This document shows, piece by piece, positions 17,716 to 35,577 of a stretch of DNA of 64,000 nucleotides; within the stretch, counting starts at the first letter, position 1, and each line of letters starts with the position of its first letter. The DNA comes from Nesterenkonia sandarakina (GTDB lineage: Bacteria > Actinomycetota > Actinomycetes > Actinomycetales > Micrococcaceae): positions 1,798,001 through 1,862,000 of the forward strand of contig NZ_JACCFQ010000001.1 of NCBI RefSeq assembly GCF_013410215.1. The letters run 5' to 3'. The notes beneath the pieces are model-generated. The model worked only from the letters and a program-made list of their open reading frames with translations. It was not told the DNA's origin and made no database searches. The translations under genes were made by a program, and so were the position numbers.

Positions 17716-18885
17716 GTGCCCGCGATCAATCTCGGAATGCCCTCCGCGCCGCCGCCAGTGCTGGCGCCGCGCCGGAAGACGCGGAACTTCCAGGTCGGGT
17801 CGGTAGGTGTGGGCAGCGATCACCGGGTCTCGGTGCAGTCCATGACCACCACCAAGACCCACGACATCAACGGCACCTTGCAGCAGATCGCGGAGCTCAC
17901 CGCCTCCGGCTGCGACATCGTCCGGGTGGCCTGCCCGACGGACAAGGACGCCGAGGCGCTGAAGATCATCGCGATGAAGTCGCAGATCCCGGTGATCGCC
18001 GATATCCACTTCCAGCCCAAATACGTCTTCGCCGCCATCGACGCCGGCTGCGGCGCGGTGCGCGTGAACCCTGGCAACATCCGGCAGTTCGATGACAAGG
18101 TCGGAGAGATCGCCAAGGCCGCCAGCGACGCCGGGGTCTCCCTGCGCATCGGGGTCAACGCCGGATCCCTGGACAAGCGGGTCATGGACAAGTACGGCAA
18201 GGCCACTCCGGAGGCGCTGGTGGAATCCGCGGTCTGGGAGGCCTCGCTGTTCGAGGAGCACGGCTTCCACGACTTCAAGATCTCGGTCAAGCACAACGAC
18301 CCGGTGGTCATGGTCCAGGCCTACCAGATGCTCGCCGAGCGCGGGGACTGGCCGCTGCACCTCGGAGTCACCGAGGCAGGCCCGGCCTTCCAGGGCACCA
18401 TCAAGTCCTCCGTGGCGTTCGGCGCGCTGCTCTCCCAGGGCATCGGAGACACCATCCGGGTCTCGCTCTCGGCCCCGCCGGCCGAAGAGGTCAAGGTGGG
18501 CAACCAGCTGCTGGAGTCGCTGAATCTGCGCCCGCGCAAGCTGGAGATCGTCTCCTGCCCCTCCTGTGGACGCGCGCAGGTCGACGTCTACACTCTCGCC
18601 GACGATGTCACCGCTGGGCTCGAAGGCATGACCGTGCCGCTGCGCGTGGCCGTCATGGGCTGCGTGGTCAACGGACCTGGTGAGGCCCGCGACGCGGACC
18701 TCGGCGTGGCCTCGGGCAACGGCAAGGGCCAGATCTTCGTCAAGGGCGAGGTCATCAAGACTGTTCCCGAGGACCAGATCGTAGAGACGCTGATCGCAGA
18801 AGCCAACCGGCTGGCCGAAGAGATGGAACGCGAATCCGATGGAGATGCTCAGGCAGCAAGTGCCCCTGTGGTCTCCGTCAGCTGA
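17716..18885 (+). CDS. ispG: 4-hydroxy-3-methylbut-2-en-1-yl diphosphate synthase (IspG/GcpE)
   Basis: 389-residue [4Fe-4S] enzyme of the MEP pathway converting MEcPP to HMBPP. GTG start at 17716 is preceded by AGGAG. The TIM-barrel part is intact ([24 protein letters not shown]). The cluster ligands are in the C-terminal domain: CPSCGR (two Cys) and [10 protein letters not shown] (third Cys, with the cluster-ligand Glu). The 158-base gap from rseP shows no clear terminator. The 3' end overlaps the next gene by 47 bases. Confidence 0.95.
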
Positions 18886-19753
18886 CGCCACAGCCGCCCG
18901 GGTGCATCGCGCCACCCGCGGCGGCGTCCGCGTGCTCGGACACGGGGACACTCCGGCTCTGGAGCGGCTGCTGGCCACCGACCCGGTGGCCAACGTCTCG
19001 GTCAGCGCCACCATTCGTGCCCGACGATCGGCGGGACCCGGCAAGGGCCGCAACGGCGCCGTGGTGCTGGGCATCGACGGTGAGAACGGGCTGCTCGCCG
19101 CCTGCTGGACCGGCAGCAACATCATCCCGGTCGGGGCCACCCCGGCTCAGGGTGAGCTCTTCGGGGTGGCGGTCGGTGCGATGCGCCGCCGGGTGGCTTC
19201 GATCTACGGCGACGCCGAGGCGGTGCTGGAGATCTTCGACGCCACCGGGTGGACCGGTGCGCGCGATGTCCGGGCCGAGCAGCCGCTGATGGCGATCACC
19301 CAGGCCTCCGGCGTGCAGCCTTTGGCCGGTGCGCGGCTCTCCCGGTCCGGAGACTTCCCCCGGGTGGAGCAGGCCAGTGCCGCGATGTTCACCGAGGAGC
19401 TGGGCTTCTCGCCCTACGCCCAGGGCGCCGGCCAGTACCGGGAGCGGGTGCGCGGCCTCATCAATGCCGGACATTCGATCATCGCGGTGGACCCGGAGAG
19501 CTCGGAGATCATGTTCAAGGCCGAGTTCGGCGCGGTCAGCCCCGAAGTGGTCCAGGTCCAGGGTGTGTGGGTGCGGCCGAGCCACCGCGGACGCGGCCTG
19601 GCCGGGCCGGGGATGGCCGCCGTCGTCGAGCGCGGACTCCAGCTCGCGCCCACCGTGAGCCTCTATGTGAACAGCTATAACACCGCGGCGATTCGGACCT
19701 ACGAGCGTGTTGGATTCACCCAGGTGGGGACCTTCGCGACCATACTGTTCTAG
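18839..19753 (+). CDS. GNAT acetyltransferase with DUF4081 domain
   Basis: 304 residues. An N-terminal DUF4081 region ([25 protein letters not shown], about 30-55) precedes a C-terminal GNAT domain with [20 protein letters not shown] (about 240-260) and [20 protein letters not shown] near the end. This two-domain family regularly follows ispG in actinobacteria. The start is uncertain: ATG 18839 lies inside ispG; ATG 18845 or GTG 18902 are also in frame. Function unknown; the acceptor substrate is not predictable. Confidence 0.85.
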
Positions 19754-20983
19754 ATGACTTTCTTCCCCTTCCCCCGGACGGCGCCGCGTCGCCGCGGTTA
19801 CGCCAGGCCCGCAGCCACCTCAGGCGCCGCGCTCGGCCTCCTCGGGGTGCTCCTGCTCACCAGCTGTGGTGCCTCCACCGCGGAGCAGGCCGGAACCCCG
19901 GCCGCCGAGCCGGGCACCGGGGGTGCCGGCGTGCAGCAGCAGGTCCCGGAACCCGCGGGAAACCAGCTCTCCCACGATGAGATGCGCGAGCAGCTGCAGT
20001 CCCGGTACCCCGACGCTGCGCTGAGCGACACCGAGGATTATTGGGCCGGGCTGCGCGATATCGAGACCGAGCTGCAGCGCCTGGTGGTCGACCCGCCCGA
20101 GTGTAAGCAGTTCGTGATGCGCTCGGCGGTGCCGGTCCCGTCCGGCGCGCTGGTGGCCTATGCCGATGGCACCGTCGAGGCCGGTGATGCGGCTGAGGAT
20201 CCTGGTGAGGGTTCTGGTGGCGGTTCTGAGGAGGGTTCTGAGGGGGATTCCAGCGGGGGTTCCGGCACGGAGACCGAGGGTGAACCGGAGGCCGGAGTGC
20301 TGGAAGCGGCGCCCGAATTCCAGCTCGCCAGCAACCAGGAGCAGCAAGCGCAGGGTGAGGACTCCGAGGGGGAGGGCTCCGAGGGTGCGGACTCTGAGGG
20401 TGCGGACTCTGAGGGTGCGGACTCTGAGGGGGAGAGCTCCGGTGATGGCGCCGAGGGTGACAGCGACTCCGGCAGCGAAGGTTCCGAAGAGAATGACTCC
20501 GGCGGGGAGAGCTCCGGCGACAGCGACTCCGGCGACAGTGACTCCGGTGACGGTGACTCCGGAGGGGATGATTCCGAGGAGGAATCAGAGCCGGTCACGG
20601 TGGATCTCCCGGCGCAGCGTCAGGCCGTGATCTATACCTTCCGCGATTGGCGTGCCGCCGACGCCCACCTCGCCGCAGAGAAGGACGGGCTTGAGTCCTG
20701 CGACTCCTACACCGCCAGCCGCGGCAGCGAGGACTCCCCAGAGGTCTCGACCTCCGTGGACACGGTGGATGTCTCATCCACCGCAGACGACGCCCTGGGC
20801 ACCACGCGGCGGATCAGCTCCGAGGGGGAGCGCGAGCACGACGCCGCGGTCACCCTGCGCAGCGGCTCACACATCGTCACCGTGGCAGTGCCGCTGTCCG
20901 AGGCGCTGTCCGAGGAGGAAGCCGAAGTCGCCGCGGAAGAGCTCCAGGCGGAGGCCGCCGACCTCATCGAGAGCTTCGACTGA
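19754..20983 (+). CDS. Acidic repeat-bearing lipoprotein
   Basis: 409-residue secreted lipoprotein. A twin-Arg-rich signal peptide and lipobox LLTSC (Cys about residue 37) anchor it outside the membrane. A first globular part (about 60-150) is followed by roughly 130 residues of Ser/Glu/Gly/Asp repeats (SEGADSEGAD units, SGDSDSGD units), then a second globular part (about 280-409). The start follows the upstream TAG directly, so it is probably co-transcribed with the GNAT gene. No recognised family. The charged repeat may be a cell-wall-spanning linker that also binds cations. Confidence 0.8.
   Translation: MTFFPFPRTAPRRRGYARPAATSGAALGLLGVLLLTSCGASTAEQAGTPAAEPGTGGAGVQQQVPEPAGNQLSHDEMREQLQSRYPDAALSDTEDYWAGLRDIETELQRLVVDPPECKQFVMRSAVPVPSGALVAYADGTVEAGDAAEDPGEGSGGGSEEGSEGDSSGGSGTETEGEPEAGVLEAAPEFQLASNQEQQAQGEDSEGEGSEGADSEGADSEGADSEGESSGDGAEGDSDSGSEGSEENDSGGESSGDSDSGDSDSGDGDSGGDDSEEESEPVTVDLPAQRQAVIYTFRDWRAADAHLAAEKDGLESCDSYTASRGSEDSPEVSTSVDTVDVSSTADDALGTTRRISSEGEREHDAAVTLRSGSHIVTVAVPLSEALSEEEAEVAAEELQAEAADLIESFD
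20381..20425 (+). repeat. 15-bp tandem repeat inside lipoprotein gene
   Basis: Three perfect copies of GAGGGTGCGGACTCT (20381, 20396, 20411) encode EGADS units. They are embedded in a longer degenerate array (20350-20580) of GAG/GAC/GGT/TCC codons. In-frame copy-number change would alter linker length without a frameshift. Confidence 0.85.
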
Positions 20984-20996
20984 CCCCCCCCCTCCT

Positions 20997-21071
20997 GCGT
21001 TTTACCGGGCTTTAAGTGGCTGACCGGGCCGTCCGTCCGCCCGGTAGTCCTCGTAAGGCCCGGTAAAACGC
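20997..21071. repeat. 75-nt dispersed palindromic element, copy A
   Basis: Starts GCGTTTTACCGGGC and ends GCCCGGTAAAACGC. By eye about 27 of 34 arm positions pair around a 7-nt centre, with an inner arm ACCGGGC/GCCCGGT. It lies between the convergent lipoprotein and TauE genes, preceded by nine C (20984-20992) and followed by TGGGAGGGGG, which extends the symmetry. Same length and layout as copies at 23835, 25255 and 34959. Confidence 0.9.
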
Positions 21072-21121
21072 TGGGAGGGGGTGAGCCCTGCCAGCCCGGC
21101 GCCCAACCGCGGGACGGGCGC

Positions 21122-21886
21122 TCAGCCGAAGAGGTCGACGGCGACGTCGTAGCCCAGCTTGATCACCAGGGCGAAGACGACCACCAGGAACACCACCCGG
21201 ATGAACTTCGATCCCTTGGCGATGGCCATCCGGGCGCCGAGGTAGCCCCCGGCCATGTTCGCCGCGCCAAGGACCAGACCGAGGCCGATGAATACGTGGC
21301 CGGCGGGGAAGAAGTAGAGCAGCGCCCCGAGGTTGGTGGCCACGTTGACCACCTTGGCCTGTGCCGAGGAGTTCAAGAAGTTGTAGCCCAGCACGGTGAC
21401 CAGCGCGATCACCAGAAAGGTTCCGGTCCCGGGGCCGAGCACGCCGTCGTAGAAGCCGATGATCAGCCCAATGGTCACCGCTCGGGCCAGGTGTCCCATC
21501 CCGGCGTGGCGCAGCTTCTCCAGCTGGCCCACGTCGGGCTTGACCGCGGTGAACACGCCCACCCCGATCAGCGCGAGCAGGATCAGCGGCAGGATGATCC
21601 GCTCTGGCAGTGAGGCGGCGACCACTGCGCCGCCGTAGCTGGCCAGCAGGGCGGCGGCCGCCATGGGCAGGGCCGTGGTCATCGAGGGCTTGACTCGTCG
21701 CGCGTAGGTGATCGCCGACGTCGTCGTCCCGAAGATCGACCCGAGCTTATTGGTGGCCAGCGCCTGGACTGGGGTGATCCCCGGGACCATCAGCAGCGCC
21801 GGCAGCTGGAGCAGCCCGCCGCCGCCGACGACGGCGTCCACCCACCCGGCCGCGAAGCCCGCCGCGATCAGCAGCAGCAGGGTCAC
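21122..21886 (-). CDS. TauE/SafE family permease
   Basis: 254-residue membrane protein with about eight helices. The N-terminal signature GWVDAVVGGGGLLQLPALL (about 15-33) and its mirrored second-half counterpart GFYDGVLGPGTGTFLVIAL (about 145-163) define the sulfite exporter TauE/SafE family. GTG start at 21886; no nearby in-frame ATG. The start lies only ten bases past a perfect 14-bp hairpin behind proS, which may separate or attenuate its expression. Probable transport of a sulfur-containing or organic anion; the substrate is unknown. Confidence 0.88.
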   Translation of the reverse strand: MTLLLLIAAGFAAGWVDAVVGGGGLLQLPALLMVPGITPVQALATNKLGSIFGTTTSAITYARRVKPSMTTALPMAAAALLASYGGAVVAASLPERIILPLILLALIGVGVFTAVKPDVGQLEKLRHAGMGHLARAVTIGLIIGFYDGVLGPGTGTFLVIALVTVLGYNFLNSSAQAKVVNVATNLGALLYFFPAGHVFIGLGLVLGAANMAGGYLGARMAIAKGSKFIRVVFLVVVFALVIKLGYDVAVDLFG

Positions 21887-21895
21887 CCAGGTGAT

Positions 21896-21937
21896 CTCGA
21901 GGCCGCCACCGATGAGAAGATCAGTGGCGGCCTCGAG
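21896..21937. terminator. Perfect 14-bp hairpin between proS and the permease gene
   Basis: Arms CTCGAGGCCGCCAC (21896-21909) and GTGGCGGCCTCGAG (21924-21937) are fully complementary around a 14-nt loop. There is no U-tract in either direction. It starts nine bases after the proS stop and ends ten bases before the permease GTG, so it could terminate or attenuate read-through, or stabilise the proS 3' end. Confidence 0.6.
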
Positions 21938-21945
21938 GGTTTCGC

Positions 21946-23769
21946 TCAGCGCGCGCCCTTGGAGTCTTGCAGGTCCCTGACGTGTGCGAGCACCTCTGCC
22001 GCGGCCTCGGCCACCGGGACCTCGCGGGATTCACCGGAGCGGCGATCCTTGAGCTCGATGGTGCCGTTCTTCAGGCCACGGCCCACGGTGACCAGCATCG
22101 GCACGCCGATCAGCTCGGCGTCGCCGAACTTCACGCCGGGGGAGACCTTGGGGCGATCGTCGTAGATGGCGCTCAGACCGGCGTCCTCAAGCTCAGCGAT
22201 CAGCGCCTCGGCCGCGGCGTAGACCTCTTCGCCCTTGCCGGTGGCGACCAGGTGCACGTCGGCCGGGGCGATGGCGGCGGGCCAGATCAGGCCCTTCTCA
22301 TCGTGGGTGGCCTCGGCGATGGCGGCCAGGGCGCGGGTGACGCCGAAGCCGTAGGAGCCCATGGTCACGGTGGCGAGCTTGCCGTTGACGTCGAGGACCT
22401 GCAGGCCCAGCGCCTCGGCGTAGCGGGTGCCCAGGTGGAAGATGTGGCCCATCTCTATGCCGCGGCGGGTGCGCAGCGGCCCGGAGCCGTCCGGGGCCGG
22501 GTCACCGGATTCCACGACGACGGACTCGATGATCCCGTCCCAGCCGAAGTCGCGCCCGGCGACCAGGCCGAACACGTGCTGGTCGGCCTGGTTCGCGCCG
22601 GTGATCCAGCTGGTGCCCGAGACCACGCGGGGATCCACCAGGTAGCTGATCCCGGTGCTGGACTCCGTGCCGAGCACCGGAGCATCCAGGGAGAGGCCGG
22701 GGCCGATGTAGCCGCGCACCAGTCCGGGGTGCTTCTTCAGGTCCGTCTCGTTCGCGGCCTCCAGGGCGACCTCACCGCCGACGCCGAGCAGTCCGCCGAT
22801 GGTGGCCTCGGCGCGCTTGAGGTCCACCTCGCGGTTGCCGGGCACGCCGAGCACCACGATCCGGCGGGTCCCGTCCGGGAGCACCGCGGCGACGACGACG
22901 TTCTTCAGGGTGTCCGCTGCGGTCCAATCCCGGTCCGCGCGGGGCTGGTGGGTGTTTGCGGCGTCGACCAGGGTGGCGATGGTGTCGGTGCCGGGGGTGT
23001 GGTGCACCTGGGCGGCGGGCAGCTCGGAGAAGTCCAGCGGTTCTGGGGCCGGCGTGGTGACGGCCTCGACGTTGGCGCGAAAGCCGCCGTCGGACTCGAC
23101 GAAGGTGTCCTCGCCGATGTCACAGGGGAAGAGGAACTCCTCCGACGCCGAGCCGCCCATCGCGCCGGACTGGGCGTTGACCGGGACCACGGGCAGGCCG
23201 AGCCGATCGAAGATGCGCAGATAGGCCTCGCGGTGCGCGTCATAGGCCGCGCTCTGGTCCTCCTCGGTGAGCGCGAAGGAGTAGGAGTCCTTCATGATGA
23301 ACTCGCGGCCGCGCAGCAGCCCCGCCCGGGGGCGCGCCTCATCGCGGTACTTGGTCTGGATCTGATAGATCGAGAGCGGCAGGTCCTTATACGAGCTGTA
23401 GAGGTCCTTCACCAGCAAGGTGAAGACTTCCTCATGGGTGGGCGCCAAGAGGTAGTCGGCCTCTTTGCGGTCCTTGAGCCGGAAGATCCCGTCCCCATAG
23501 TCGTCCCAGCGCCCGGTGGCCTCATAGGGCTCCTTGGGCAGCAGCGCCGGGAAGTGCACCTCCTGAGCGCCGATCCGGTTCATCTCCTCGCGGACGATCG
23601 CCTCGATCTTCCGCAGCACGGTCAGGCCCAGCGGCAGCCAGGTGTAGACGCCCGGGGCGGCGCGGCGGATATAGCCGGCGCGGACCAGCAGCTGGTGGCT
23701 GGCGACCTCGGCGTCGGCCGGGTTGTCCCGCAGCGTACGGAGGAACAGATGAGACAGGCGGAGCGGCAC
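21946..23769 (-). CDS. proS: Prolyl-tRNA synthetase
   Basis: 607-residue class II aminoacyl-tRNA synthetase of the bacterial (ProS type 1) architecture. Catalytic motifs are in the N-terminal half (motif 1 region [13 protein letters not shown], motif 2 [19 protein letters not shown] at about 135-153). An editing insertion domain of YbaK type lies at about 225-395, motif 3 ([14 protein letters not shown]) near 465, and a C-terminal anticodon-binding domain at about 500-595. Full length and apparently intact. The start at 23769 gives the usual [16 protein letters not shown]-terminus. Confidence 0.97.
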
Positions 23770-23834
23770 AGGTGAACTCGTTTCCGGTAAGGGATCTTCT
23801 ACCGCCCCAAGTCTAAGGGTCGCTCCTCACCTAG

Positions 23835-23909
23835 GCGTTTTACCTGCCCTTGCGTAGATCACCGGGCCGACGGTTAGCCCGGTACTTCACGTCAGACCCG
23901 GTAAAACGC
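23835..23909. repeat. 75-nt dispersed palindromic element, copy B
   Basis: Starts GCGTTTTACC, ends GACCCGGTAAAACGC. The inner arm is ACCGGGC/GCCCGGT, with about 24 of 34 arm positions paired. It lies in the divergent gap between proS and the AbiEi-like gene, so a simple terminator role is unlikely. A G-rich tract follows directly on the right. Confidence 0.9.
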
Positions 23910-23910
23910 C

Positions 23911-23936
23911 GGGTGGGGCGGGTGGGGTGGGTGGGG
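23911..23936 (+). other. Putative G-quadruplex tract
   Basis: Six G3-G4 runs separated by single T or C bases within 26 nt, abutting repeat copy B. This exceeds the usual G3+N1-7 pattern for an intramolecular quadruplex on the + strand. It sits in the promoter region of the AbiEi-like gene. Folding is predicted, not shown. Confidence 0.6.
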
Positions 23937-23957
23937 CGCGCAGGGCGGGTGGGAGGG

Positions 23958-23966
23958 TTATCCACA
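23958..23966. other. Single DnaA-box-like 9-mer
   Basis: TTATCCACA matches the canonical DnaA box exactly. It is isolated, about 50 bases upstream of the AbiEi-like gene. No cluster of boxes or AT-rich unwinding region is nearby, so it is not an origin. It could be a chance match or a regulatory DnaA site. Confidence 0.3.
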
Positions 23967-24016
23967 GTCGGCCCCAGTGATCCCCGGCTCCCGACGGCGC
24001 GGGGCAGGCTTCTGCC

Positions 24017-25324
24017 ATGACCGCACAGACCACGCCGCCGCAGACCCCGCAGACCCCGCAGACCCCGCAGCGAAACCTGCCCCGCAATCGACTCCTGCGC
24101 GCCAAGGACCTCTGGGACGCCTCCGGCTCCTCCGAGCTGACCGGAGGGTTCCTCGAGGTCGACGACATCGGGCGCAGGCTCAGTGCGATGGTCGACGCCG
24201 GGCAACTGCTGCGCGTCCAGCGGGGCGTCTACCTCGAACCCTCCATCTGGCTGCAGACGGCTCCCTGGGAGCGTCATCTGATCGTCGCCGCGGCGGTCAA
24301 CCTGCAGTCACCGAGCACCCGGTTCTGCCGCGCCACCGCCCTGGTGATGCACGGCTTCGGCCTGCTGCGGCCCCCGGAGGCGGTCACCGTGCGCACGGCG
24401 CGCAACGACGCCGTCGGACTGCATCCCGGCACGGCGCTGACCGGCCGCGCCTCCGCCTCCACGATCCAGCGGCTGCTGCACGCCCACCCCGAGGCGCTCG
24501 ACGGCGGCGCCCACGGTCCGGCGGCGCTGCGCACCCTGGGCACTCGGCGCCACCAGTACCCGCGCGCCTTCCGGGATAAGCTGCGCGAAGGACTGGGACA
24601 GGAATGGGATAAGCCCTACCAGTCCGCCCTGGTGCGTCAGCGTTTCCCGATTCCAGAGAGTCTTCCGGCGGCCCTCGTCGCGGGCATGTGGACCTGGCTG
24701 GAGCCGATCGGGCTTGTGCTGGCCGACACCGTGCCCCGAATGAGCTTCGCGGAGGCGGTGGCGGTGCTCGATGCGTATCGGGCCGGACGCTTCGGCGCAC
24801 AGGCTGAGCCGGGTGGGGCGCTCTCCGCCGTCGAACCCTGGCTGTCTCTGGTGGCCTCCGCGCGAGGCAGGGAGCGCTGGAAGGTGGCGTGGGAGTTCTC
24901 CGAGGCCGGCGCGGAATCTGTGGGGGAGTCATGGGCTCGGGTGCGCATCGCTGAACTGGGATTCACGGCACCAGAGCTGCAGCGGCGGTTCCTGCTCCCT
25001 CACGGGGTCACCTGCCGGACCGACTTCTACTGGGAGGATCCAGGAGTCGTGGGTGAGTTCGATGGGCTGCAGAAGTATCGGGCCTCCATGACGCTCTCCG
25101 GGCTCGACCCTGCGCAGGCAGTGATCGCCGAGAAGGAGCGCGAGGACGGGCTGCGCTCGCTGGGGGTCAGAGTGGTGCGTTTCACCTGGGCTGACCTGCA
25201 GGACTCCACTCGACTCCAACGTCTGCTGAGCAATGCAGGAGTTCCCCGTTCCGCGCGTTCTACCGGGGCGGACGTGTTCTACCGAGACAACCGCAGGGCC
25301 GGTAGACCACGCAGAGCCAGGTAA
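24017..25324 (+). CDS. AbiEi-like antitoxin-domain protein with nuclease-like C-terminus
   Basis: 435 residues. After a Thr/Pro/Gln repeat (PQTPQTPQTPQ), residues about 25-190 resemble the winged-helix AbiEi antitoxin region (LRVQRGVYLEPSIW, then ATALVMHGFGLLRPPEAV). The C-terminal part carries GEFDGLQKYR (about 350-359) and EKEREDGLRSLGVRVVRFTW (about 377-396), the PD-(D/E)XK-like pattern of DUF559/Vsr-related domains. No AbiEii-like nucleotidyltransferase partner is adjacent. It sits between proS and rimP, bracketed by repeat copies B and D. Its last ~24 codons lie inside copy D. Probably an accessory defence or regulatory gene; activity unknown. Confidence 0.75.
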   Translation: MTAQTTPPQTPQTPQTPQRNLPRNRLLRAKDLWDASGSSELTGGFLEVDDIGRRLSAMVDAGQLLRVQRGVYLEPSIWLQTAPWERHLIVAAAVNLQSPSTRFCRATALVMHGFGLLRPPEAVTVRTARNDAVGLHPGTALTGRASASTIQRLLHAHPEALDGGAHGPAALRTLGTRRHQYPRAFRDKLREGLGQEWDKPYQSALVRQRFPIPESLPAALVAGMWTWLEPIGLVLADTVPRMSFAEAVAVLDAYRAGRFGAQAEPGGALSAVEPWLSLVASARGRERWKVAWEFSEAGAESVGESWARVRIAELGFTAPELQRRFLLPHGVTCRTDFYWEDPGVVGEFDGLQKYRASMTLSGLDPAQAVIAEKEREDGLRSLGVRVVRFTWADLQDSTRLQRLLSNAGVPRSARSTGADVFYRDNRRAGRPRRAR

Positions 25325-25329
25325 AACGT
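25255..25329. repeat. 75-nt dispersed palindromic element, copy D
   Basis: The most diverged copy: starts GCGTTCTACC, ends CAGGTAAAACGT, about 22 of 34 arm positions paired, inner arms TCTACCG and GGTAGACC. It overlaps the final codons and stop (25322-25324) of the AbiEi-like gene and is followed by eight G at 25333-25340. Confidence 0.75.
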
Positions 25330-25420
25330 CAAGGGGGGGGTGGGCACGGGCAGGTGCAACGAGCGGGGGAGGGTCAGGCACAATGGAGACGCACCGCAGA
25401 CCACCACCGTTAGGACCGTC

Positions 25421-25966
25421 ATGGCCACCGCCCACCGCCCCACCGGCGAGCAGCGCTTCAAGGATCCCCGCGCCGCGAAGATCGCCGAGCTGATCACCCC
25501 CACGATCACCGCGCACGGGCTCTACCTCGAAGACGTCGAGCTCACCGCCACCGGGCCGAGCACCACGCTGAAGGTCTCGGTGGATCTGCTCAGCGGCACC
25601 GGGCAGGTGGACCTGGACACCGTCGCCGAGATCTCCCAGGCGATCTCGGCCCGGTTCGACGAAGAAGATGTGCTGCCCGAGCTCGAGAGCTACGACCTCG
25701 AGGTCTCCACCCCCGGGGCGACCCGTCCGCTGACCGAACCGCGGCACTTCGAGCGAAATGTGGGCCGGTTGTTGGAGATCACACAGGCCGGGCACTCTCC
25801 GATCCTGGCCAGGCTGCAGGCCGTGCAGGAGGGCTCGATCACGGTGATCGAGCAGAAGCCGGCGCCGAAGAAGGGGATGCCGGTCAAGCATGGTGACCCG
25901 ATGGAGATCGGCTTCGCGGCGATCACGCACGCACGAGTGCAGGTAGAGTTTTCCCACACGCAGTAG
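25421..25966 (+). CDS. rimP: Ribosome maturation factor RimP
   Basis: 181-residue 30S assembly factor. The two-domain RimP pattern is visible: LITPTITAHGLYLEDVEL near residues 25-42, then DLEVSTPGATRPL near 92-104, followed by the SH3-like C-terminal domain. Start ATG 25421 is preceded by TAGGA; the frame is open upstream but only into repeat-adjacent DNA. First gene of the rimP-nusA-ylxR-infB block, separated from nusA by 24 bases. Confidence 0.93.
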   Translation: MATAHRPTGEQRFKDPRAAKIAELITPTITAHGLYLEDVELTATGPSTTLKVSVDLLSGTGQVDLDTVAEISQAISARFDEEDVLPELESYDLEVSTPGATRPLTEPRHFERNVGRLLEITQAGHSPILARLQAVQEGSITVIEQKPAPKKGMPVKHGDPMEIGFAAITHARVQVEFSHTQ

Positions 25967-25990
25967 ATACTGGCTTAACCGGAGGCACAA

Positions 25991-26968
25991 GTGGATATCG
26001 ATATGAGCGCACTGCGCATGCTTGTCAAAGAGCGCGAGATCCCGCTGCAGCGGCTGATCCCCGCCATCGAACAGGCGCTGGTGCTGGCTTACCACAAATC
26101 ACCCGGTGCACTGCAGCACGCCCGGGCCGAGATCGATCAGTCCACGGGCCACGTCACGGTATGGGCCAAGGAGCAGGACGAGAACGGCACCTTCATCGGC
26201 GAGTTCGATGACACCCCCCGGGACTTCGGCCGGGTCGCCGCCTCCACCGCCCGCCAGGTGATCATGCAGCGGATCCGCGACGCCGAGGACGATCAGGTCC
26301 TGGGCCAGTTCAAGGGTCGCGAGGGGGAGCTGATCTCCGGCACCATCCAGCAGGGCCGGAACCCGCACATGATCCAGGTGGACCTGGGAAGCGTCGAGGC
26401 GCTGCTGCCCCCGCAGGAGCACGTCCCCGGCGAGGAGTACGTCCACGGGCACCGGATCCGCGCCTACGTCGTCGACGTCCACCGCGGGATGCGCGGGCCC
26501 TCCATCACGCTCTCCCGCTCCCACCCGGGACTGGTGAAGAAGCTCTTCGAACATGAGGTCCCAGAGATCGCCGACGGCTCGGTGGAGATCACCGCGATCG
26601 CCCGCGAGGCCGGGCACCGCACCAAGATCGCGGTGCGCGCCCACCAGTCCGGGATCAACGCCAAGGGCGCCTGCATCGGCTCGATGGGGTCCCGGGTGCG
26701 CGCGGTGATGAACGAGCTCAACGACGAGAAGATCGACATCATCGATCACTCCGATGACCCGGCCGAGTTCATCGCCCACGCGCTCTCACCGTCGAAGGTG
26801 AAGTCGGTGACCATCCTGGATCAGGCCACCCGCAGCGCCCGCGTGGTGGTTCCGGACTACCAGCTCTCCCTGGCGATCGGAAAAGAGGGCCAGAACGCGC
26901 GGCTCGCGGCCAAGCTCACCGGCTGGCGGATCGACATCGTCTCCGACGCGACGCTCGCCGCGTCCTGA
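25991..26968 (+). CDS. nusA: Transcription termination/antitermination protein NusA
   Basis: 325 residues, the short actinobacterial form without C-terminal acidic repeats. N-terminal RNA polymerase-binding region (1-115), S1 domain (about 120-175, with [24 protein letters not shown]), then two KH domains (KH1 around [21 protein letters not shown]2 around [19 protein letters not shown]). GTG start at 25991 has GGAGG seven bases upstream; ATG 26003 would remove only four residues. Confidence 0.95.
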
Positions 26969-27023
26969 GCAGCCGACCGACTCCCACGTTTCTGCTCGAT
27001 CCCGCCGGAAGGGGTAGACTGTC

Positions 27024-27299
27024 ATGGTTCCAGTGCGTACCTGCATCGGCTGTCGCCGTGCGGTCGCTCAGGACACGGCAATAAGGCTCGCACTCACCGC
27101 AGCTCAGACCGCCGAGACCGCACCGCCTCCGGTGGTATGGGACACCGACCGGGCACTGCCCGGACGAGGCGCCTGGCTGCACCCGCAGCGCGAATGCCTC
27201 GAGACCGCGCTCAAGCGCAAGGCCTTCAACCGGGCCTTCCGCCGGAAAGTGGACCCGAGCGCACTTGATCTGCACGACATTATTGGCACCGACGGCTGA
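27024..27299 (+). CDS. ylxR: YlxR (DUF448) RNA-binding protein
   Basis: 91 residues starting MVPVRTCIGCRR, the hallmark YlxR N-terminus, and ending with GRGAWLHPQRECLETALKRKAFNRAF, the conserved basic surface. Small cytoplasmic protein always found between nusA and infB; it binds RNA and in some bacteria influences RNase P activity. 55 bases after nusA. Confidence 0.92.
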   Translation: MVPVRTCIGCRRAVAQDTAIRLALTAAQTAETAPPPVVWDTDRALPGRGAWLHPQRECLETALKRKAFNRAFRRKVDPSALDLHDIIGTDG

Positions 27300-27309
27300 C
27301 GCCGCCTTC

Positions 27310-27325
27310 GCCGCAGCAATGCGGC
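27310..27325. other. GNRA-capped small hairpin in ylxR-infB gap
   Basis: GCCGCA-GCAA-TGCGGC, a perfect 6-bp stem with a GCAA tetraloop, directly after ylxR. A second stem, CCCCGC (27477-27482) with GCGGGG (27491-27496), precedes the infB ribosome site. The rest of the 222-base gap shows no gene. These may be leader structures affecting infB expression. Confidence 0.4.
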
Positions 27326-27521
27326 GGATCAGCGGGGGAGACCAGAAAGCGGGTTCAGAGAGATGGATCCCCGATGAAGACCGACGCATGAGTTCGCAGC
27401 GATGACCCATCACGGCAACTCCGTCAAGGTTTCAGAACAGTTCAAAAGGCCTTCGCCGATGAACCGCTGACATCAGCCCCGCTGGTGCCGGCGGGGAAGC
27501 GTGGGCCAGACAAGGAGAAAT

Positions 27522-30371
27522 GTGGCCAAGGCCCGCGTACACGAGCTCGCCAAAGAGCTCGGCATCACCTCGAAAGAAGCCCTCGCAACTCTGCAGGGCA
27601 TGGGCGAATTTGTGAAGTCGCCCTCCTCCACCGTGGAGCCCCCGGTGGCGAAGAAGCTGCGCCAGGCATTCCCTGACGCCAAGCCCGCCGCCGACGCCTC
27701 CGCGTCCAACGGCGCTGCTCGTCCGGCTCCGAAGAAGTCCGACGGCGCCTCCGCGCCTGCCGCTGAGCGCTCGACCCAGTCAGGATCCAGCTCCTCCGCG
27801 CCGCGCCCCGGCGGCTTCAAGCCCGGCCCCCGGCCCGGCCCGAAGCCTGCTGCCAAGCCCGAACCGGAAGCCCCCGCCGCCAAGGCGCCGGCCCCGAAGG
27901 CCGAAGCCCCCAAGGCTGAAGCGCCCCAGGCGGAGAAGCCGGCTGCGGCCAGCGACGCCCCCGCGGCGAAGCCCGGCTCCAAGCCGGCAGCTCCCGGCGC
28001 GAAGCCCGGTGCTCCCCGCCCAGGCAACAACCCCTACGCCCCGAGCCAGGGGATGGGCGCCGAGCGTGCGGCCCCGCGTCCCGGTGGGACCGGCGGCCCA
28101 CGCCCCGGACCCAAGCCGGCCGGACCACGTCCGGGGAACAACCCGTTCGCACCCCAGCAGGGCATGCGCACCGAGCGCGGCGGCGGACCTCGTCCCCGCG
28201 GCGGTCAGGGAGCACCCGGCGGCGCACCGCGTCCGGGCGCACCCCGCCCGGCAGGCGCTGCCGGCTCACGCCCAGGCGCTCCTGCAGCAGGCGGCGCAGC
28301 GCGTCCCGCTCCCCGTCCGGGTGGTCCCAAGCCCTCGATGATGCCCAGCCAGACCCCGGCACCTGCCGGAGGTCGTCCGGGCGCACCCGCCGGCGGTCCG
28401 CCGCGCGGTGGTCGTGGCGGTGGACCCCGCCGTGGCGGCGCAGCCGGTGCCTTCGGGCGCGGCGGCTCCAAGGCCAAGGCGCGCAAGTCCAAGCGGGCGA
28501 AGCGCCAGGAGATGGAGCAGCGTCAGTCCCGTGAGATCGGCGGCGTGCGCGTTCCCAAGGGTGACGGCAGCGTCACCGTGCGGCTGCGCCGCGGCTCCTC
28601 GCTGGGCGACTTCGCCGAGAAGATCAATGCCGAGCCGGCCGCCATGGTCACCGTGCTGATGAAGCTCGGTGAGATGGCGACCGCCAACCAGTCCCTGGAC
28701 GAAGAGACTTTCCACCTGCTGGGCGAGGAGCTGGGCTACCCGGTCCAGATCGTCTCCCCGGAGGATGAGGATCGCGAGCTGCTCGAGACCTTCGACATCA
28801 ACATCGAAGACGAGCTGGCGGCAGAGGGCTCCGACGAGCTCTCCGCCCGCGCCGCCGTCGTGACCGTCATGGGCCATGTCGACCACGGCAAGACCCGACT
28901 CCTGGACTCCATCCGAAGCGCGAAGGTGACCGAAGGCGAAGCCGGCGGCATCACCCAGCACATCGGTGCCTACCAGGTCCACGTCGAGCACGAGGGCGTG
29001 GAACGCGGCCTGACCTTCATCGATACTCCCGGTCACGAGGCGTTCACCGCCATGCGTGCCCGTGGTGCGAAGGTCACCGACATCGCGGTGCTGGTCGTGG
29101 CCGCCGATGACGGTGTCATGCCGCAGACCATCGAGGCGCTGAACCACGCCAAGGCGGCCGACGTCCCCGTCGTCGTCGCGGTGAACAAGATGGACAAGGA
29201 AGGCGCCTCCCCGGACAAGGTCCGCGGTCAGCTGGCCGAATACGGTCTGGTGCCCGAGGAGTACGGCGGCGACACCATGTTCGTCAACGTCTCCGCGCTG
29301 AAGCACCTGAACATCGACGAGCTCCTGGAGGCTGTGCTGCTCACCGCAGACGCCGCCCTGGAGCTCACCGCGAACCCGAACAAGGCGGCACGCGGTGTGG
29401 CCATCGAAGCGAACCTGGACAAGGGTCGCGGCGCCGTGGCCACTGTGCTGGTCCAGTCGGGCACCCTGCGGGTGGGCGACAACATGGTCGCCGGCACCGC
29501 CCACGGTCGCGTCCGAGCGATGTTCGACGAGCACGGCGAGACCGTCAAGGAGGCTCTGCCCTCCCGTCCGGTGCAGGTGCTGGGCCTGTCCTCGGTGCCC
29601 CGCGCCGGTGACACGTTCCTCTCCACCTCGGATGACCGCACGGCACGTCAGATCGCGGAGAAGCGTGAGGCGGTGGAGCGCAACGCTCAGCTGGCCAAGC
29701 GTCGCAAGCGGATCAGCCTGGAAGACTTCGACCAGGCCGTGGCCGAGGGCAAGATCGACACGCTGAACCTGATCCTCAAGGGCGACGTCTCCGGTGCCGT
29801 GGAGGCCCTGGAAGATGCGCTGTTGAAGATCGATGTGGGCGACGACGTGCAGCTGCGCGTCATCCACCGCGGCGTCGGCGCGATCACCCAGAACGACGTG
29901 AACCTGGCCACCGTGGACAACGCGGTGATCCTGGGCTTCAACGTCCGTCCTGCCGAGCGCGTGAACGACCTCGCCGAGCGCGAGGGCGTGGACATGCGCT
30001 TCTACTCGGTGATCTACGCCGCGATCGACGACATCGAGGCAGCCCTGAAGGGCATGCTGAAGCCGGAGTACGAAGAGGCTTCGCTGGGCACCGCGGAGGT
30101 CCGCGAGGTCTTCCGGTCCTCGAAGTTCGGCAGCATCGCCGGTTCGATCGTCCGCTCCGGGCTCATCCGCCGCAACGCCAAGGCGCGCCTGGTGCGCGAC
30201 GGCAACGTGGTCGCGGAGAACCTCACCATCGAGTCGCTCAAGCGCTTCAAGGACGACGCCACCGAGGTCCGCGACGGCTTCGAGTGTGGCATCGGTCTGG
30301 GATCGTTCAACGACATCCGCGAAGGTGACAGCATCGAGACCTGGGAGATGCGCGAGATTCCGCGCTCCTGA
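27522..30371 (+). CDS. infB: Translation initiation factor IF-2
   Basis: 949-residue GTPase that places initiator tRNA on the 30S subunit. GTG start at 27522 follows AAGGAG and gives the conserved [18 protein letters not shown] helix. Residues ~50-330 are a Pro/Ala/Gly/Lys-rich linker, as in other actinobacteria. The G domain starts near 448 with G1 GHVDHGKT, G3 DTPGHEAF and G4 NKMDKE. The C-terminal domains II-IV are complete. Full length for the group. Confidence 0.96.
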
Positions 30372-30399
30372 CCAGGCCTGCCGGTTCGCCCGGCACGCG

Positions 30400-30434
30400 C
30401 TCCGGGGACCCTGCCAGCGGCGGGGTCCCCGGAG
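30400..30434. terminator. 12-bp hairpin between infB and rbfA
   Basis: CTCCGGGGACCC (30400-30411) pairs perfectly with GGGTCCCCGGAG (30423-30434). No T-run follows, and rbfA continues on the same strand, so this may be an mRNA stability or partial attenuation structure rather than a full terminator. Confidence 0.5.
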
Positions 30435-30514
30435 TCGTCACCAGAGAAGACCCACCTGACCCGCCGCCGCGCGGGACCAGGACAGGGACAAGCACTTTTT
30501 GAGAGGAGCGCATC

Positions 30515-31036
30515 ATGGCAGATCCAGCACGCGCCGCACGACTGGCCCAGCGCATCAAGGTGATCGTGGCCGAGGCGCTGCGTCGCCGGGTCAAGGATGA
30601 GCGCGCAGAACTGATCACGGTCACCGACGCGCGGGTCACCAACGACCTCCAGCACTCCACGGTGTACTACACCGTGATGGCTCCGGACGAAGAGTCCCGC
30701 GCCGGCGCCGAGGCTGTCCTGGCCGCGAACCAGGGCACCCTGCGCTACGAGCTCGGCCGGCAGCTGAACATCCGGCTGACCCCGACCCTGGAGTTCGTGG
30801 CCGATGAGATCCCGGAGTCCGCCGCGCATATGGAGGACCTGCTGCGCAAGGCCCGGGAACAGGACGAACAGGTCGCAGCCCTGCGCAAGGACGCCCAGCC
30901 CGCCTCGGAGGAGAAGCCCTACCGCTGGCAGGTCGAGGAGGAGCCCGCCGAGGACGCGCCCGCCCAGGACGCAGCTTCTCAGGACGCGCCCGCCCAGGAC
31001 GGCGACGCCGACGCCTCCAGCGCCACGGATCGCTGA
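30515..31036 (+). CDS. rbfA: Ribosome-binding factor A
   Basis: 173 residues. The KH-like RbfA core is complete (RLAQRIKVIVAEALRR at 9-24, ITVTDARVTNDLQHSTVYYTV at 36-56, RLTPTLEFVADE near 88-99), followed by a ~50-residue acidic Ala/Glu/Asp tail (repeated AQDA units). Required for 30S maturation, binding 16S rRNA helix 1. Preceded by GAGAGGAG. Confidence 0.94.
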   Translation: MADPARAARLAQRIKVIVAEALRRRVKDERAELITVTDARVTNDLQHSTVYYTVMAPDEESRAGAEAVLAANQGTLRYELGRQLNIRLTPTLEFVADEIPESAAHMEDLLRKAREQDEQVAALRKDAQPASEEKPYRWQVEEEPAEDAPAQDAASQDAPAQDGDADASSATDR

Positions 31037-31063
31037 GCCCGGTCAAGGCACGGCGGGACGCCC

Positions 31064-32083
31064 ATGGGGAAGAAGCAGAAGCCTGAAGAGCTGGAGGTCG
31101 GTTCCGGACTTGTCCTGGTGGACAAGCCGGCCGGCCTGACCAGCCATGACGTGGTGGGTCGGATCCGCAGGCTTGCCGGGACCCGCAAGGTGGGTCACGC
31201 CGGGACGCTGGATCCGATGGCCACCGGGGTCCTGGTGGTCGGGATCAACCGCGCCACCCGGCTGCTCACCCACATCGTCGGGGTGGACAAGACCTACACC
31301 GCCACCGTGCGGCTGGGCCAGTCCACCTCCACCGACGACGCCGAGGGGGAGGTGCTGCAGACCCGGTTCGCCAACGCGGTGACCCCGGAAGCGATCACCG
31401 CCGAGATCGCCACGCTCACCGGGGCGATCCAGCAGGTCCCCGCCACGGTCTCCGCGATCAAGGTCGACGGTCAGCGCGCCCACGCCCGGGCCCGCGCCGG
31501 AGAAGAGGTCGCGCTGCAGGCCCGCGGCGTCACCGTGCATCACTTCGAGGTCTTTGACATCCGACGGATCGACGGCGGCAAGCTCGTCGACGTCGACATC
31601 GAGGTCCGGGTCTCCTCCGGCACCTATGTGCGGGCCCTGGCCCGCGACCTCGGCGAGGCGCTCGAGGTCGGCGGCCACCTCACCGCGCTGCGCCGCACCG
31701 CGGTGGGCTCCTACAGCATCGACCAGACCCTCACCCTGGACCAGCTCGGGGAGGACTTCGGCTACATCGGCCTCGCCGAGGCCGCGCAGCAGCTCTTCCC
31801 GGCACGCCAGCTCACCGCCGAGGAGACCATGAACCTGGGCTACGGGCGGCGGATCACCGCATCCGGCACGGGAGACTCCACGCAGCTCACCGCCGCCTTC
31901 GCCCCCGACGGGGAGCTGGTCGCGCTGCTGACCGACGTGCCCGCCAAGAAGGGCGCCTCCGCCTCTCCCGACGCGGCCCAGGCCGCAGACTCGAACGCCG
32001 TCGACTACCAGGCCAAGCCCGAGCTGGTCTTTGCGACCACGCCGGGATCCGGCGCCGCACAGGCGGGCGGGGACGCCGGATGA
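31064..32083 (+). CDS. truB: tRNA pseudouridine(55) synthase
   Basis: 339 residues. Makes pseudouridine 55 in the T-loop of tRNAs. The catalytic motif HAGTLDPMATGVLVVG with the active Asp lies at about residues 45-60, and the substrate-binding YVRALARDLGE near 190-200; a C-terminal PUA-like part and a low-complexity tail follow. It overlaps the next gene by four bases (ATGA). Confidence 0.95.
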   Translation: MGKKQKPEELEVGSGLVLVDKPAGLTSHDVVGRIRRLAGTRKVGHAGTLDPMATGVLVVGINRATRLLTHIVGVDKTYTATVRLGQSTSTDDAEGEVLQTRFANAVTPEAITAEIATLTGAIQQVPATVSAIKVDGQRAHARARAGEEVALQARGVTVHHFEVFDIRRIDGGKLVDVDIEVRVSSGTYVRALARDLGEALEVGGHLTALRRTAVGSYSIDQTLTLDQLGEDFGYIGLAEAAQQLFPARQLTAEETMNLGYGRRITASGTGDSTQLTAAFAPDGELVALLTDVPAKKGASASPDAAQAADSNAVDYQAKPELVFATTPGSGAAQAGGDAG

Positions 32084-32445
32084 CGGTGATGTTCCTCATA
32101 GGCGCCGTCGTCTGTGGGCTCTCCGTGCTGGTGTGCTGGACGATGACCGCGGTCCGGGACCACCCGGCTGATTCCTCGATCATCTCGCTGGCCGCGATCG
32201 AGCTCTACCTGCTGGCCTACGCCGTCTACGCCGGGATCAGGCAGCTCGGCGGCGCCTCGGTGACCGGGGAGGCCTGGGAGTTCTGGGGTTATATTCTCAC
32301 TGCACTCCTGCTGCCGGTGGGGGTGTTCATCTGGGCCATGATCGACAAGACCCGCTGGTCCAACCTGGTGATGAGCTTCGTCGGGCTCGTCGTGTTCGTG
32401 ATGGTCTACCGTTTGGAGGAGATCTGGTGGGGAAGCGCACTATGA
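32080..32445 (+). CDS. Four-helix membrane protein of unknown function
   Basis: 121 residues, almost entirely hydrophobic, with four predicted helices (about 3-23, 35-57, 67-88, 94-113). It is translationally coupled to truB upstream and to another membrane protein downstream. Similar small pairs occur near truB-ribF in Micrococcaceae from general knowledge. No motif to assign a function. Confidence 0.8.
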   Translation: MTVMFLIGAVVCGLSVLVCWTMTAVRDHPADSSIISLAAIELYLLAYAVYAGIRQLGGASVTGEAWEFWGYILTALLLPVGVFIWAMIDKTRWSNLVMSFVGLVVFVMVYRLEEIWWGSAL

Positions 32446-32897
32446 CCCGATCACCGCAGGACACACCACGCAACGCCTCACCGACCCCGCGCAACCGCGG
32501 GGTGGGGATGCTGATCATCACCGCCTACGGCATCTTCGCGGTCTCCTCCTTCGCCCGGGCGCTGTACCAGATCCTCACCGACTTCGACGCCTCCCCGGTG
32601 TCCTACACACTGAGCGCCTTCGCCGCCGGGGTGTACATCGTGGCCACGATCGCGCTGGCCCGCATCGGTCCGCGCGCCTGGCTGCTCGCGCTGGTCGCGG
32701 TGCTGGTTGAGCTGACCGGGGTGCTCGGCGTCGGCCTGTGGACCTACCTGGACCCAGAGCTGTTCAACGAGGCCACCGTGTGGTCCCACTTCGGCGAGGG
32801 CTACGGATTCGTGCCGCTGGTGCTGCCGTTCATCGGTCTGTTCTGGCTGCTGCGGCACCGTCCCGGCACCGAGGCCGCGCGGGAAGCCCAGGGATGA
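32442..32897 (+). CDS. Integral membrane protein of unknown function
   Basis: 151 residues with ATG 32442 overlapping the preceding stop (ATGA); an earlier in-frame GTG at 32427 is less likely. A polar N-terminus (RSPQDTPRNASPTPRNRG) is followed by four hydrophobic segments (about 22-42, 55-75, 80-102, 120-137). It overlaps the ribF start by four bases, so it is embedded in the truB-ribF operon. Function unknown. Confidence 0.8.
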   Translation: MTRSPQDTPRNASPTPRNRGVGMLIITAYGIFAVSSFARALYQILTDFDASPVSYTLSAFAAGVYIVATIALARIGPRAWLLALVAVLVELTGVLGVGLWTYLDPELFNEATVWSHFGEGYGFVPLVLPFIGLFWLLRHRPGTEAAREAQG

Positions 32898-34033
32898 GCG
32901 ATAGGCTGAGCGACGTGCAGTTCTGGAACGGTCTTGAAGAAGTCCCGCGCGGGCTCGGACCCACCGCAGTGACCATCGGCAACTTCGATGGCGTCCACCT
33001 GGGACACCAGCAGGTCCTGGCCCGCCTGGTCGCGGCCGCCCACGGGCAGGCCGCGGCTGACACTGGCGCCGAGACTGGTGCCGGCGCAGAGACAGGCGAG
33101 CAGGCCGACGACGCCGCCGCGGCCGCCCCGGGCGCAGCGCCTTCGCGCACCCAGCCGCCCACCCACGCTCAGGCGCACACCCAGCCGCGCGCACAGGCTG
33201 TGGCGATCACCTTCGATCCGCACCCGCTGCAGGTCCACCGGCCGGAGGAGTCCCCGGTGATGCTCACCGGCACCGCCGAGAAGCTCCAGCGCCTGGCCGA
33301 GACCGGCATCGACGCGCTGCTGGTGCTGCACTACAACCTCGACCTCGCCGGGCTCACCGCCGAGGAGTTCGTCAAGACCTACTTCGTGGACACCCTGCAT
33401 GCCTCCGTGGTGGTCATCGGACACGATGTGCGCTTCGGCCGCGGGAACTCCGGGAACTTCGAGACCATGGTCGAGCTCGGCCGGCGCTACGGCTTCACGG
33501 TGCTCGGGGTGGATGATTTCGCCCTCTCCGGGCGCTCCGTGGCCGAGACCGAACGCCGCTGCTCCTCCACCTGGGTCCGCGAGGCCCTGGAAGCAGGGGA
33601 TGTGGCCGCCGCCGCCGAGGTGCTGGGCCGGCCCCACGCGGTGCGCGGCGAGGTGGTCCACGGTGCTGCCCGCGGGCGCGGCCTGGGCTTTCCCACCGCG
33701 AACCTGGGCGGGGACTCCGAGGGCATGATCCCCGCCGACGGCGTCTACGCCGGCTGGCTGGTCGACGCCGCCGGTGCCCGCTGGCCCGCCGCGATCTCCG
33801 TGGGCTCGAATCCCACATTCCACGGCGTGGAACGGGTGGTGGAATCCCATGTGATCGACCGGCCCACCGAAGAGGTGGAGGACTTCGACCTCTACGGCCA
33901 GCATGTCCGGGTGGAGTTCGTGCAGCGGCTGCGCGGGATGGTCGCCTACGAGGGCGTGCCCAAGCTGGTGGAGCAGATGTACCAGGACGTGGAGCAGACG
34001 CGTGAGGTCCTCTCCCGGCTGCCCGCCGAGTAG
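32894..34033 (+). CDS. ribF: Bifunctional riboflavin kinase/FAD synthetase
   Basis: 379 residues. Makes FMN then FAD. The N-terminal adenylyltransferase domain has GNFDGVHLGHQQVL (about 27-40, with the HxGH nucleotide site). It is interrupted by a ~50-residue Ala/Glu/Thr/Gln low-complexity insertion (about 52-102) before the strand AITFDPHPLQVH. The C-terminal kinase domain has GRGLGFPTANLGGD (about 259-272). Start ATG 32894 overlaps the upstream stop. The insertion is unusual in such a conserved enzyme. Confidence 0.94.
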   Translation: MSDRLSDVQFWNGLEEVPRGLGPTAVTIGNFDGVHLGHQQVLARLVAAAHGQAAADTGAETGAGAETGEQADDAAAAAPGAAPSRTQPPTHAQAHTQPRAQAVAITFDPHPLQVHRPEESPVMLTGTAEKLQRLAETGIDALLVLHYNLDLAGLTAEEFVKTYFVDTLHASVVVIGHDVRFGRGNSGNFETMVELGRRYGFTVLGVDDFALSGRSVAETERRCSSTWVREALEAGDVAAAAEVLGRPHAVRGEVVHGAARGRGLGFPTANLGGDSEGMIPADGVYAGWLVDAAGARWPAAISVGSNPTFHGVERVVESHVIDRPTEEVEDFDLYGQHVRVEFVQRLRGMVAYEGVPKLVEQMYQDVEQTREVLSRLPAE

Positions 34034-34048
34034 ATCCGGAGTCGGCGC

Positions 34049-34981: not shown

Positions 34982-35033
34982 GATACCGCGCCAACGGTCG
35001 GGCCGGTAGAGCACGTAAGGCCCGGTAAAACGC
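34959..35033. repeat. 75-nt dispersed palindromic element, copy C
   Basis: Starts GCGTTTTACCTGGGCC, ends GGCCCGGTAAAACGC. The inner arms are TACCG and CGGTA, with CGTG/CACG mid-arms; about 25 of 34 positions pair. The left 23 bases overlap the methyltransferase 3' end. The right flank is TCGGGGGAGGGG. Lies just upstream of the rpsO promoter region. Confidence 0.9.
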
Positions 35034-35072
35034 TCGGGGGAGGGGCCGGTGGCCGTGGGCGAGCGGCTGCTG

Positions 35073-35098
35073 TATCGTAGACAGGTCGCTTCGGCGAC
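35073..35098 (+). promoter_or_regulatory. rpsO promoter -10 and leader hairpin
   Basis: TATCGT at 35073-35078 fits a -10 hexamer. About seven bases later begins a GTCGC-TTCG-GCGAC stem with a stable tetraloop (35085-35098), which would be the 5' end of a ~110-nt rpsO leader. No convincing -35 is visible. Confidence 0.4.
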
Positions 35099-35195
35099 GC
35101 CGTCATGCTGCAGTCCGCGGTGGCTGACACTGGTCCCTGGCCCTCACCGGCAAAGCCCGGTCCTGTTCGCGGTACAACAATAAAGGAGCTCTTCC

Positions 35196-35465: not shown

Positions 35466-35501
35466 GCTTCAGCGTCAAACGCTGATCACCAAGCAACGAA
35501 T

Positions 35502-35550: not shown

Positions 35551-35577
35551 TATGCGAGACTAGTGGGTGGCGCACCC

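Follow-up and report, generated by a model that had tools for sequence, protein, structure and literature searches.

A chromosomal AbiEi-like/Vsr-like nuclease gene and its bracketing 75-bp palindromes as a probable gene-plus-site system in Nesterenkonia

The window analyzed here (a 64,000-nt stretch of the Nesterenkonia sandarakina chromosome) contains, at 24017–25324 on the + strand, an ORF of 435 aa that is predicted to join an AbiEi-like DNA reader to a Vsr-like nuclease and that is bracketed by two copies of a 75-nt palindrome. We consider it probable that gene and palindromes form one gene-plus-site system, in which the protein would bind and cut the sites, and the gene looks like the owner of the palindromes rather than their cargo. 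That the two form one unit had already been proposed in an original prediction, and this proposal is upheld by the present analysis.

The gene lies between proS (21946–23769, − strand) and rimP (about 25423–25966, + strand). The upstream palindrome, B (23835–23909), lies in the gap from which proS and the 435-aa gene diverge, 107 nt before the ATG of the latter. It has the same position in all six gene-bearing genomes and is a candidate operator as well as a candidate recognition site. The downstream palindrome (25255–25329, i.e. copy D of the original prediction) overlaps the 3′ end of the gene, whose last 22 codons and TAA stop (25322–25324) it encodes, and it is read in the same frame in six out of six orthologues. 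The predicted placement of the gene between two 75-nt palindromes at proS-rimP is exact to the end points (23835 and 25329). Copies B and D do flank the gene, but the statement that they share an orientation is uninformative, since the palindromy of the element runs to its centre (an ACSGT core). Among the ORFs at the locus there is no transposase between the two flanking repeats and, with proS and rimP as neighbours, no AbiEii nucleotidyltransferase next to the gene, which stands here without a partner gene.

The conserved columns of this palindrome (family 1) comprise GCGTTTTACC, CGTGnnnTACC, and ACSGT together with their mirror images. Each 75-bp dyad carries four half-sites, the outer GCGTTTTACC and the inner CGTGnnnTACC, which are 19 bp apart within an arm. 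Allowing at most one mismatch, GCGTTTTACC occurs 11 times in the window, compared with a mean of 0.74 and a maximum of 4 in 100 shuffled windows, none of which reached 11. Two dispersed copies are found in the window as well: copy A (20997–21071), between convergent genes for a serine-rich protein and a tauE-like protein, and a copy at 34959–35033, which overlaps the 3′ end of an upstream + strand ORF and supplies its stop (TGA, 34979–34981). An Rfam search of positions 18000–38000 returned only the Actino-pnp RNA (RF01688, 57.3 bits; 35606–35676), just downstream of the latter copy.

In total, the genome of N. sandarakina (G000) contains 14 copies of the family-1 palindrome. A single-end search gave 21 exact matches, all within 13 copies of exactly 75 nt; the 14th copy is the one overlapping the gene. 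When the adjacent ORFs were read by eye, six copies lay in convergent gaps, three in divergent gaps, and five between tandem genes, and a promoter-type regulon was rejected because it does not fit this gene context. Eleven of the 14 copies appear to cluster around the gene, at 1.28–1.93 Mb of the 2.91-Mb contig; the palindromes of a second family (family 2, see below) show no comparable clustering around it. The surroundings of family-1 palindromes are C-rich on the left and G-rich on the right, by eye also for many family-2 copies, and these tracts are mostly missing (by eye) at empty loci. Several congeners (five loci and others) carry the tauE-proS segment in inverted orientation; in the window (20997–23909), two palindromes mark its exact ends. 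As the inverted genomes carry other palindromes, or none were found in them, the inversion could not be tied to the palindromes.

The structure of the protein was modeled with a pLDDT of 87.7 and a pTM of 0.86. Its N-terminal part includes a predicted winged-helix region (residues 20–80; 24074–24256, + strand), within which residues 28–74 match Pfam AbiEi_4 with 21 bits, below the Pfam cut-off of 25; 26 of 64 homologues match this family at E ≤ 0.01. Residues 16–296 match AbiEi (6y8q; Z 8.5 over 186 residues, rmsd 6.5) and, by Foldseek, Rv2827c (1zel; probability 0.99, E 2.3 × 10−3), and the best E-value for AbiEi in PADLOC was 3.3 × 10−7. Based on fold and invariant residues, residues 297–412 (24905–25252, + strand) are predicted to form a PD-(D/E)XK/Vsr-like nuclease domain. 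Here, residues 299–411 match the catalytic domain of I-Bth0305I (3r3p_A; Z 11.1, rmsd 2.7, 94 residues), NGO0050 (Z 10.0), and Vsr (Z 9.7). The corresponding Foldseek match, 3r3p_B, had E 0.29 and probability 0.96, and no Foldseek match reached E 0.001. I-Bth0305I presumably belongs with the EDxHD family. Invariant in the 64 homologues are E304, Q322, D336, W339, E347, D349, G350, K353, R375, R388, and L404; no His is found among the invariant or nearly invariant columns, and a Pfam scan of the same homologues detected no Y1 transposase family. Searches with the family profile against PDB sequences and searches of NCBIfam gave no match, and PHROGs gave one weak match (E 0.056). Further structure matches were obtained for Toxoplasma gondii mitoribosome proteins with the nuclease part (Z 9.0 and 8.9), and for MenT/TglT toxins (Z 6–7) and TnsA (Z 6.6). 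Overall, the predicted fold resembles AbiEi combined with a nuclease of the Vsr/I-Bth0305I type, and the earlier assignment of an AbiEi-like and a nuclease-like part agrees with fold matches, Pfam, and PADLOC.

An orthologue of the gene is present in six of 30 congeneric (Nesterenkonia) genomes; as anticipated, the genus as a whole does not share the unit. Using a two-ended pattern with up to three mismatches, 14, 16, 18, 15, 16, and 2 matches were counted in the six orthologue-bearing genomes, one of the 14 being a chance match in coding sequence. The other 24 genomes have no copy beyond two unrelated matches, i.e. a different palindrome in G014 and, in G019, the same coding sequence that gives the chance match; a reversed control pattern matched once in each of three genomes. 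Absence is weaker for four genomes because they are less than 90% complete, and among the 26 others six are with and 20 without. In the tree, the genomes with the gene all fall into a single clade of nine, three members of which have lost it; the number of independent events is therefore smaller than it seems, and co-occurrence by itself carries little weight (1 in 84 by counting). G021, which fits the favoured system least well, has an intact gene with its catalytic residues and only the two flanking palindrome copies; therefore, the dispersed copies are not needed for the gene.

For ten copies, the locus is common to G000, G022, and G027; with one-sided matches left out, 11 of the 14 copies of N. 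sandarakina recur at their locus in at least one of the other two genomes. In 11 orthologous pairs from G022 and G027, only 4 of 352 contact columns (defined on three other genomes) had changed, compared with 97 of 209 free columns; the synonymous difference (pS) of the gene is 0.375. Because the contact columns are frozen and the free columns have drifted, selection acts on each copy individually; relics of a decaying transposon and homogenisation by gene conversion were dismissed since neither would give this pattern. Strong constraint per site at fixed loci is, however, also what functional binding sites give, and a possible, though rather doubtful, alternative is that the AbiEi part represses its own gene via the flanking pair (perhaps by looping), that the dispersed copies make up a small regulon or help to organise the nucleoid, and that the nuclease acts elsewhere, e.g. 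on phage DNA. The position of B 107 nt before the ATG would agree with this, and so would the family background: the promoters of AbiEi and Rv2827c contain two and four 23-bp inverted repeats, respectively, to which these proteins themselves bind (PMC7319586). The four-half-site palindrome upstream of the gene fits this habit of the AbiEi family. Operator function alone is harder to reconcile with (i) the convergent, divergent, and tandem contexts of the 14 copies, which do not form a promoter pattern; (ii) the duplication of a bare palindrome unit, which in G022 was copied 3.1 kb away, the two copies differing at 5 of 75 positions and their flanks being similar over no more than 3–4 nt; and (iii) G021, which lost the dispersed copies and keeps the gene.

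In other lineages, many homologues (identity mostly 28–46%) are bracketed by palindromes of other sequence. Taking a flank similarity score of at least 20 (direct and inverted) as a match, matched palindromes were found in both flanks for 45 of 91 homologues, compared with 6 of 600 mismatched flank pairs, of which five came from a single orthogroup. The gene places total roughly 100, of which this first set covers 91; some ten matches that were weak or partial did not enter it, and one of 92 places was dropped for its short flank. The 46 homologues without a matched pair at this threshold are an upper bound, because the upstream search window lay inside the gene for nine of them. In a second set, flanks matched at 14 of 30 loci from another genus of the same family (34 places) and at 10 of 25 from another family (25 places), compared with 3 of 400 mismatched pairs; without the four genes already counted among the 91 (L244, L265, L274, and L290), the values are 12 of 28 and 9 of 23. 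Three of these four loci were positive, and L274 was negative in the first set because of the search window. A test for the same cargo plus repeats at other loci, as suggested in the original prediction, was positive in an unexpected way: the gene family does recur, but with different palindromes.

At an offset of 19 bp within the arm, identity was 46.3%, compared with 21.6–33.6% at other offsets from 8 to 31. The 21 loci new to this layout test gave 40.4% at 19 bp, compared with 19.3–36.0%, and all 24 loci gave 40.6%. The palindromes differ in spelling and share the 19-bp repeat, so their common feature is layout, not sequence. In one orthogroup (two loci, with a third similar), the upstream palindrome is a short TCGTAGAGCTATAGCGCTACGA-type element. 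Exact or one-mismatch searches in the other lineages found few copies beyond the flanking pair; thus, the bracketing pair rather than a dispersed population may be the core of the system. Over all pairs, palindrome similarity did not follow winged-helix identity (Spearman 0.01; 438 of 999 permutations as high), and co-variation of reader and site was rejected at this level as not significant; the partial correlation with palindrome similarity was 0.467 for the nuclease part and 0.275 for the winged helix. At E ≤ 1 × 10−40, the family occurs in 15 of 15 genomes of another genus and in 14 of 61 of another family, and it seems to turn over quickly. According to an ORF scan, the reading frame looks broken in eight homologues, five of which still lie between matched palindromes.

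A second palindrome family (TTGAGTTCTCCGG...) occurs in the genus, with 18 arm matches in G000, 16 in G018, 12 in G019, 9 in G027, and none in 20 genomes. It brackets an AbiEi-nuclease gene in G000, G018, G019, and G027, the frame being broken in G027 by ORF scan. G022 and G021 have the family-2 gene and only three exact arm matches each, and G012 and G016 have five and three arm matches without a family-2 gene among the homologues found. Besides an AbiEi-nuclease gene (as in L122), family 2 often brackets single unrelated genes (three loci each in G000 and G018, two in G019, and one in G027), which by eye we take to encode, for example, a RibD-like reductase, an SDR, a small membrane protein, and an Excalibur-like protein. 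Family-2 positions are mostly common to several species.

The original prediction interpreted the locus as a composite mobile unit, with the palindromes as element ends and a defence-type gene as cargo, a reading that we now regard as improbable. It would be consistent with the bracketing of the gene by two sites in many lineages and with the ispG-nusA neighbourhood, where a homologue was found in 17 of 28 genomes with enough sequence, in five gaps and in both orientations. Likewise, a different gene, which in G000 and G018 lies between two palindromes of family 2, is missing from G019, where one hybrid palindrome remains; this loss is, however, explicable by recombination between repeats. G027 has lost a copy present in G022 and G011, which a 3-nt microhomology could explain, and some palindromes lie at one-sided synteny matches. 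A composite transposon was rejected because no transposase lies between the repeats and no target duplication was seen at the sites compared (the empty loci, the G022 copy, and the G019 and G027 losses). None of 50,697 phage records and only one of 72,556 plasmid records (a weak, partial match) matched the gene, which is chromosomal in the collections searched. Gene and both sites occupy the same junction in six of six orthologues with a mostly vertical signal, and the orthologues are under purifying selection (dN/dS 0.185–0.325 in five pairs). Among the ispG-nusA homologues intact enough for a tree, 15 of 16 group together, with two other genes (support 0.99 for the main part of the joint node), and 6 of the 11 non-orthologous ones have matched palindromes of other sequence. 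A chromosomal gene without a partner, with purifying selection and this grouping, does not support the idea of passive cargo moved by its bounding palindromes. A look for an empty proS-rimP site had been suggested as a check. In the three clade members without the gene (G012, G018, and G019), the junction is filled by other sequence of about 4.3 kb, which in G012 and G019 includes a long ORF that by eye is presumably MalT/LuxR-like. Between proS and rimP, only a short gap is present in the more distant G029, G006, and G023.

Gene-less relatives are without the family-1 palindrome, and the nearest gene-less alleles carry other genes. At 12 loci compared in G012, G018, and G019 (gene lost) and in G021 (gene kept), no intact copy was found; 44 of the 48 comparisons were two-sided, and for the other four, which were one-sided, absence is taken from the genome-wide pattern. 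At the empty loci, mostly a short spacer is left. By eye, decayed remnants are visible at llm in all four genomes, at GT and icd in G021, and at bioD in G019; likewise by eye, the GT locus of G012, G018, and G019 retains some 14 nt from the right end. At the menF locus, G021 and G018 have about 620–650 nt of other sequence, alike near its start. The sites are deleted or decayed in the gene-less relatives, and likewise in the gene-keeping G021. Constraint on sites while the gene is present and their loss where it is gone would also be expected under addiction by titration, i.e. if the palindromes parked a toxic nuclease and loss of a site freed the enzyme, so that each site is kept. We regard this as a distinctly unlikely explanation, since G021 combines an intact ORF, catalytic residues included, with two sites only.

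In an alignment of 73 copies (including only 8 of the 16 copies of G011), 780 of 1533 cases at 21 variable column pairs were complementary, compared with 772.9 ± 14.2 after shuffling. Because the arms do not covary, the palindrome is best read as a double-strand site. An RNA or single-strand hairpin element (bidirectional terminator, mRNA stabiliser, or REP-type hairpin) is highly improbable and was rejected on covariation, although two of the four window copies (A and 34959–35033) fold far better than shuffled sequences (z −5.05 and −5.78) and several copies sit after stop codons: for B and the copy that overlaps the gene, folding exceeds that of shuffles only modestly (z −1.88 and −1.03, with 10 and 31 of 200 shuffles folding as well), the palindromic centre is needed by a double-strand dyad and not by a loop, B lies between divergent genes, and the palindromes have no Rfam match.

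In the gene-plus-site system that we favour, the protein would read double-stranded DNA via its AbiEi-like winged-helix part, beside which it would carry a nuclease domain of the Vsr/homing-endonuclease type, with a role that we infer. Its cognate site would be the 75-bp dyad with four half-sites around the ACSGT core. Two such palindromes bracket the gene, the upstream one at the position expected of an AbiEi-type autorepressor operator. Further ones, which for this family were seen solely in gene-bearing genomes, occupy fixed loci in the gaps between other genes or at their 3′ ends. The protein may bind the palindromes and nick or cut them, causing rare copying and rearrangement. In this sense of binding, cutting, and copying, the system would be a REPIN-RAYT-like partnership built of unrelated parts.

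RAYTs are Y1/HUH transposases, with an HUH (His-x-His) motif plus a Tyr. REP/REPIN-RAYT systems resemble the present one in a dedicated chromosomal enzyme gene flanked by palindromes (here in the window and the five other orthologues), in a dispersed intergenic palindrome population (here families 1 and 2, weak or absent in other lineages), and in the lineage-specificity of the palindromes. In contrast, the present protein has an AbiEi plus Vsr-like predicted fold without a conserved His motif and is not a Y1/HUH transposase, copy numbers are low (2–18), and the site is a fixed 75-bp four-half-site dyad, palindromic to its centre and without hairpin covariation. Membership in REPIN-RAYT was rejected on the HUH motif and the hairpin tests. 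With the AbiE type IV toxin-antitoxin systems (AbiEi/Rv2827c), the present system shares the N-terminal fold and inverted repeats before the gene, for Rv2827c also the number of four repeats (PMC7319586); it differs in having a fused nuclease domain and no AbiEii nucleotidyltransferase beside the gene, and in that sites are also found at the 3′ end of the gene and elsewhere in the genome. The homing endonuclease I-Bth0305I and Vsr are alike in the predicted fold of the catalytic domain (Z 11.1 and 9.7), whereas the DNA-reading part is different here, no intron or intein context was seen, and the gene lies between two whole palindromes and does not appear to interrupt one. What is new here is that a second copy is present at the 3′ end of the gene and others are dispersed, that a nuclease is fused to the reader, and that the sites are re-coded lineage by lineage. 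Among the matches listed in a search of open-access literature, no paper linked AbiEi/DUF559 nucleases to palindromes, and no described role for the AbiEi-nuclease family was found.

Taken more broadly, and here we are evenly divided, the family may represent a widespread actinobacterial class: an AbiEi-type reader fused to a homing-endonuclease-like nuclease, bracketed by its own four-half-site palindrome, which in some lineages seeds conserved intergenic sites and promotes rearrangement there, and in which reader and sites have repeatedly been re-coded together in one neighbourhood. Such joint re-coding can be likened to that of PRDM9 and its hotspots. Genes of the AbiEi-nuclease family are common. 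If each bracketed gene is tied to its own palindrome, their function would be directly testable, because the DNA site could be read from the flanks. The question posed by REP/RAYT, namely what maintains a population of palindromes on a bacterial chromosome, would then have a second and independent answer, in which a reader of double-stranded DNA takes the place of the single-strand transposase. The system would also offer dozens of natural reader/site pairs for studies of specificity.
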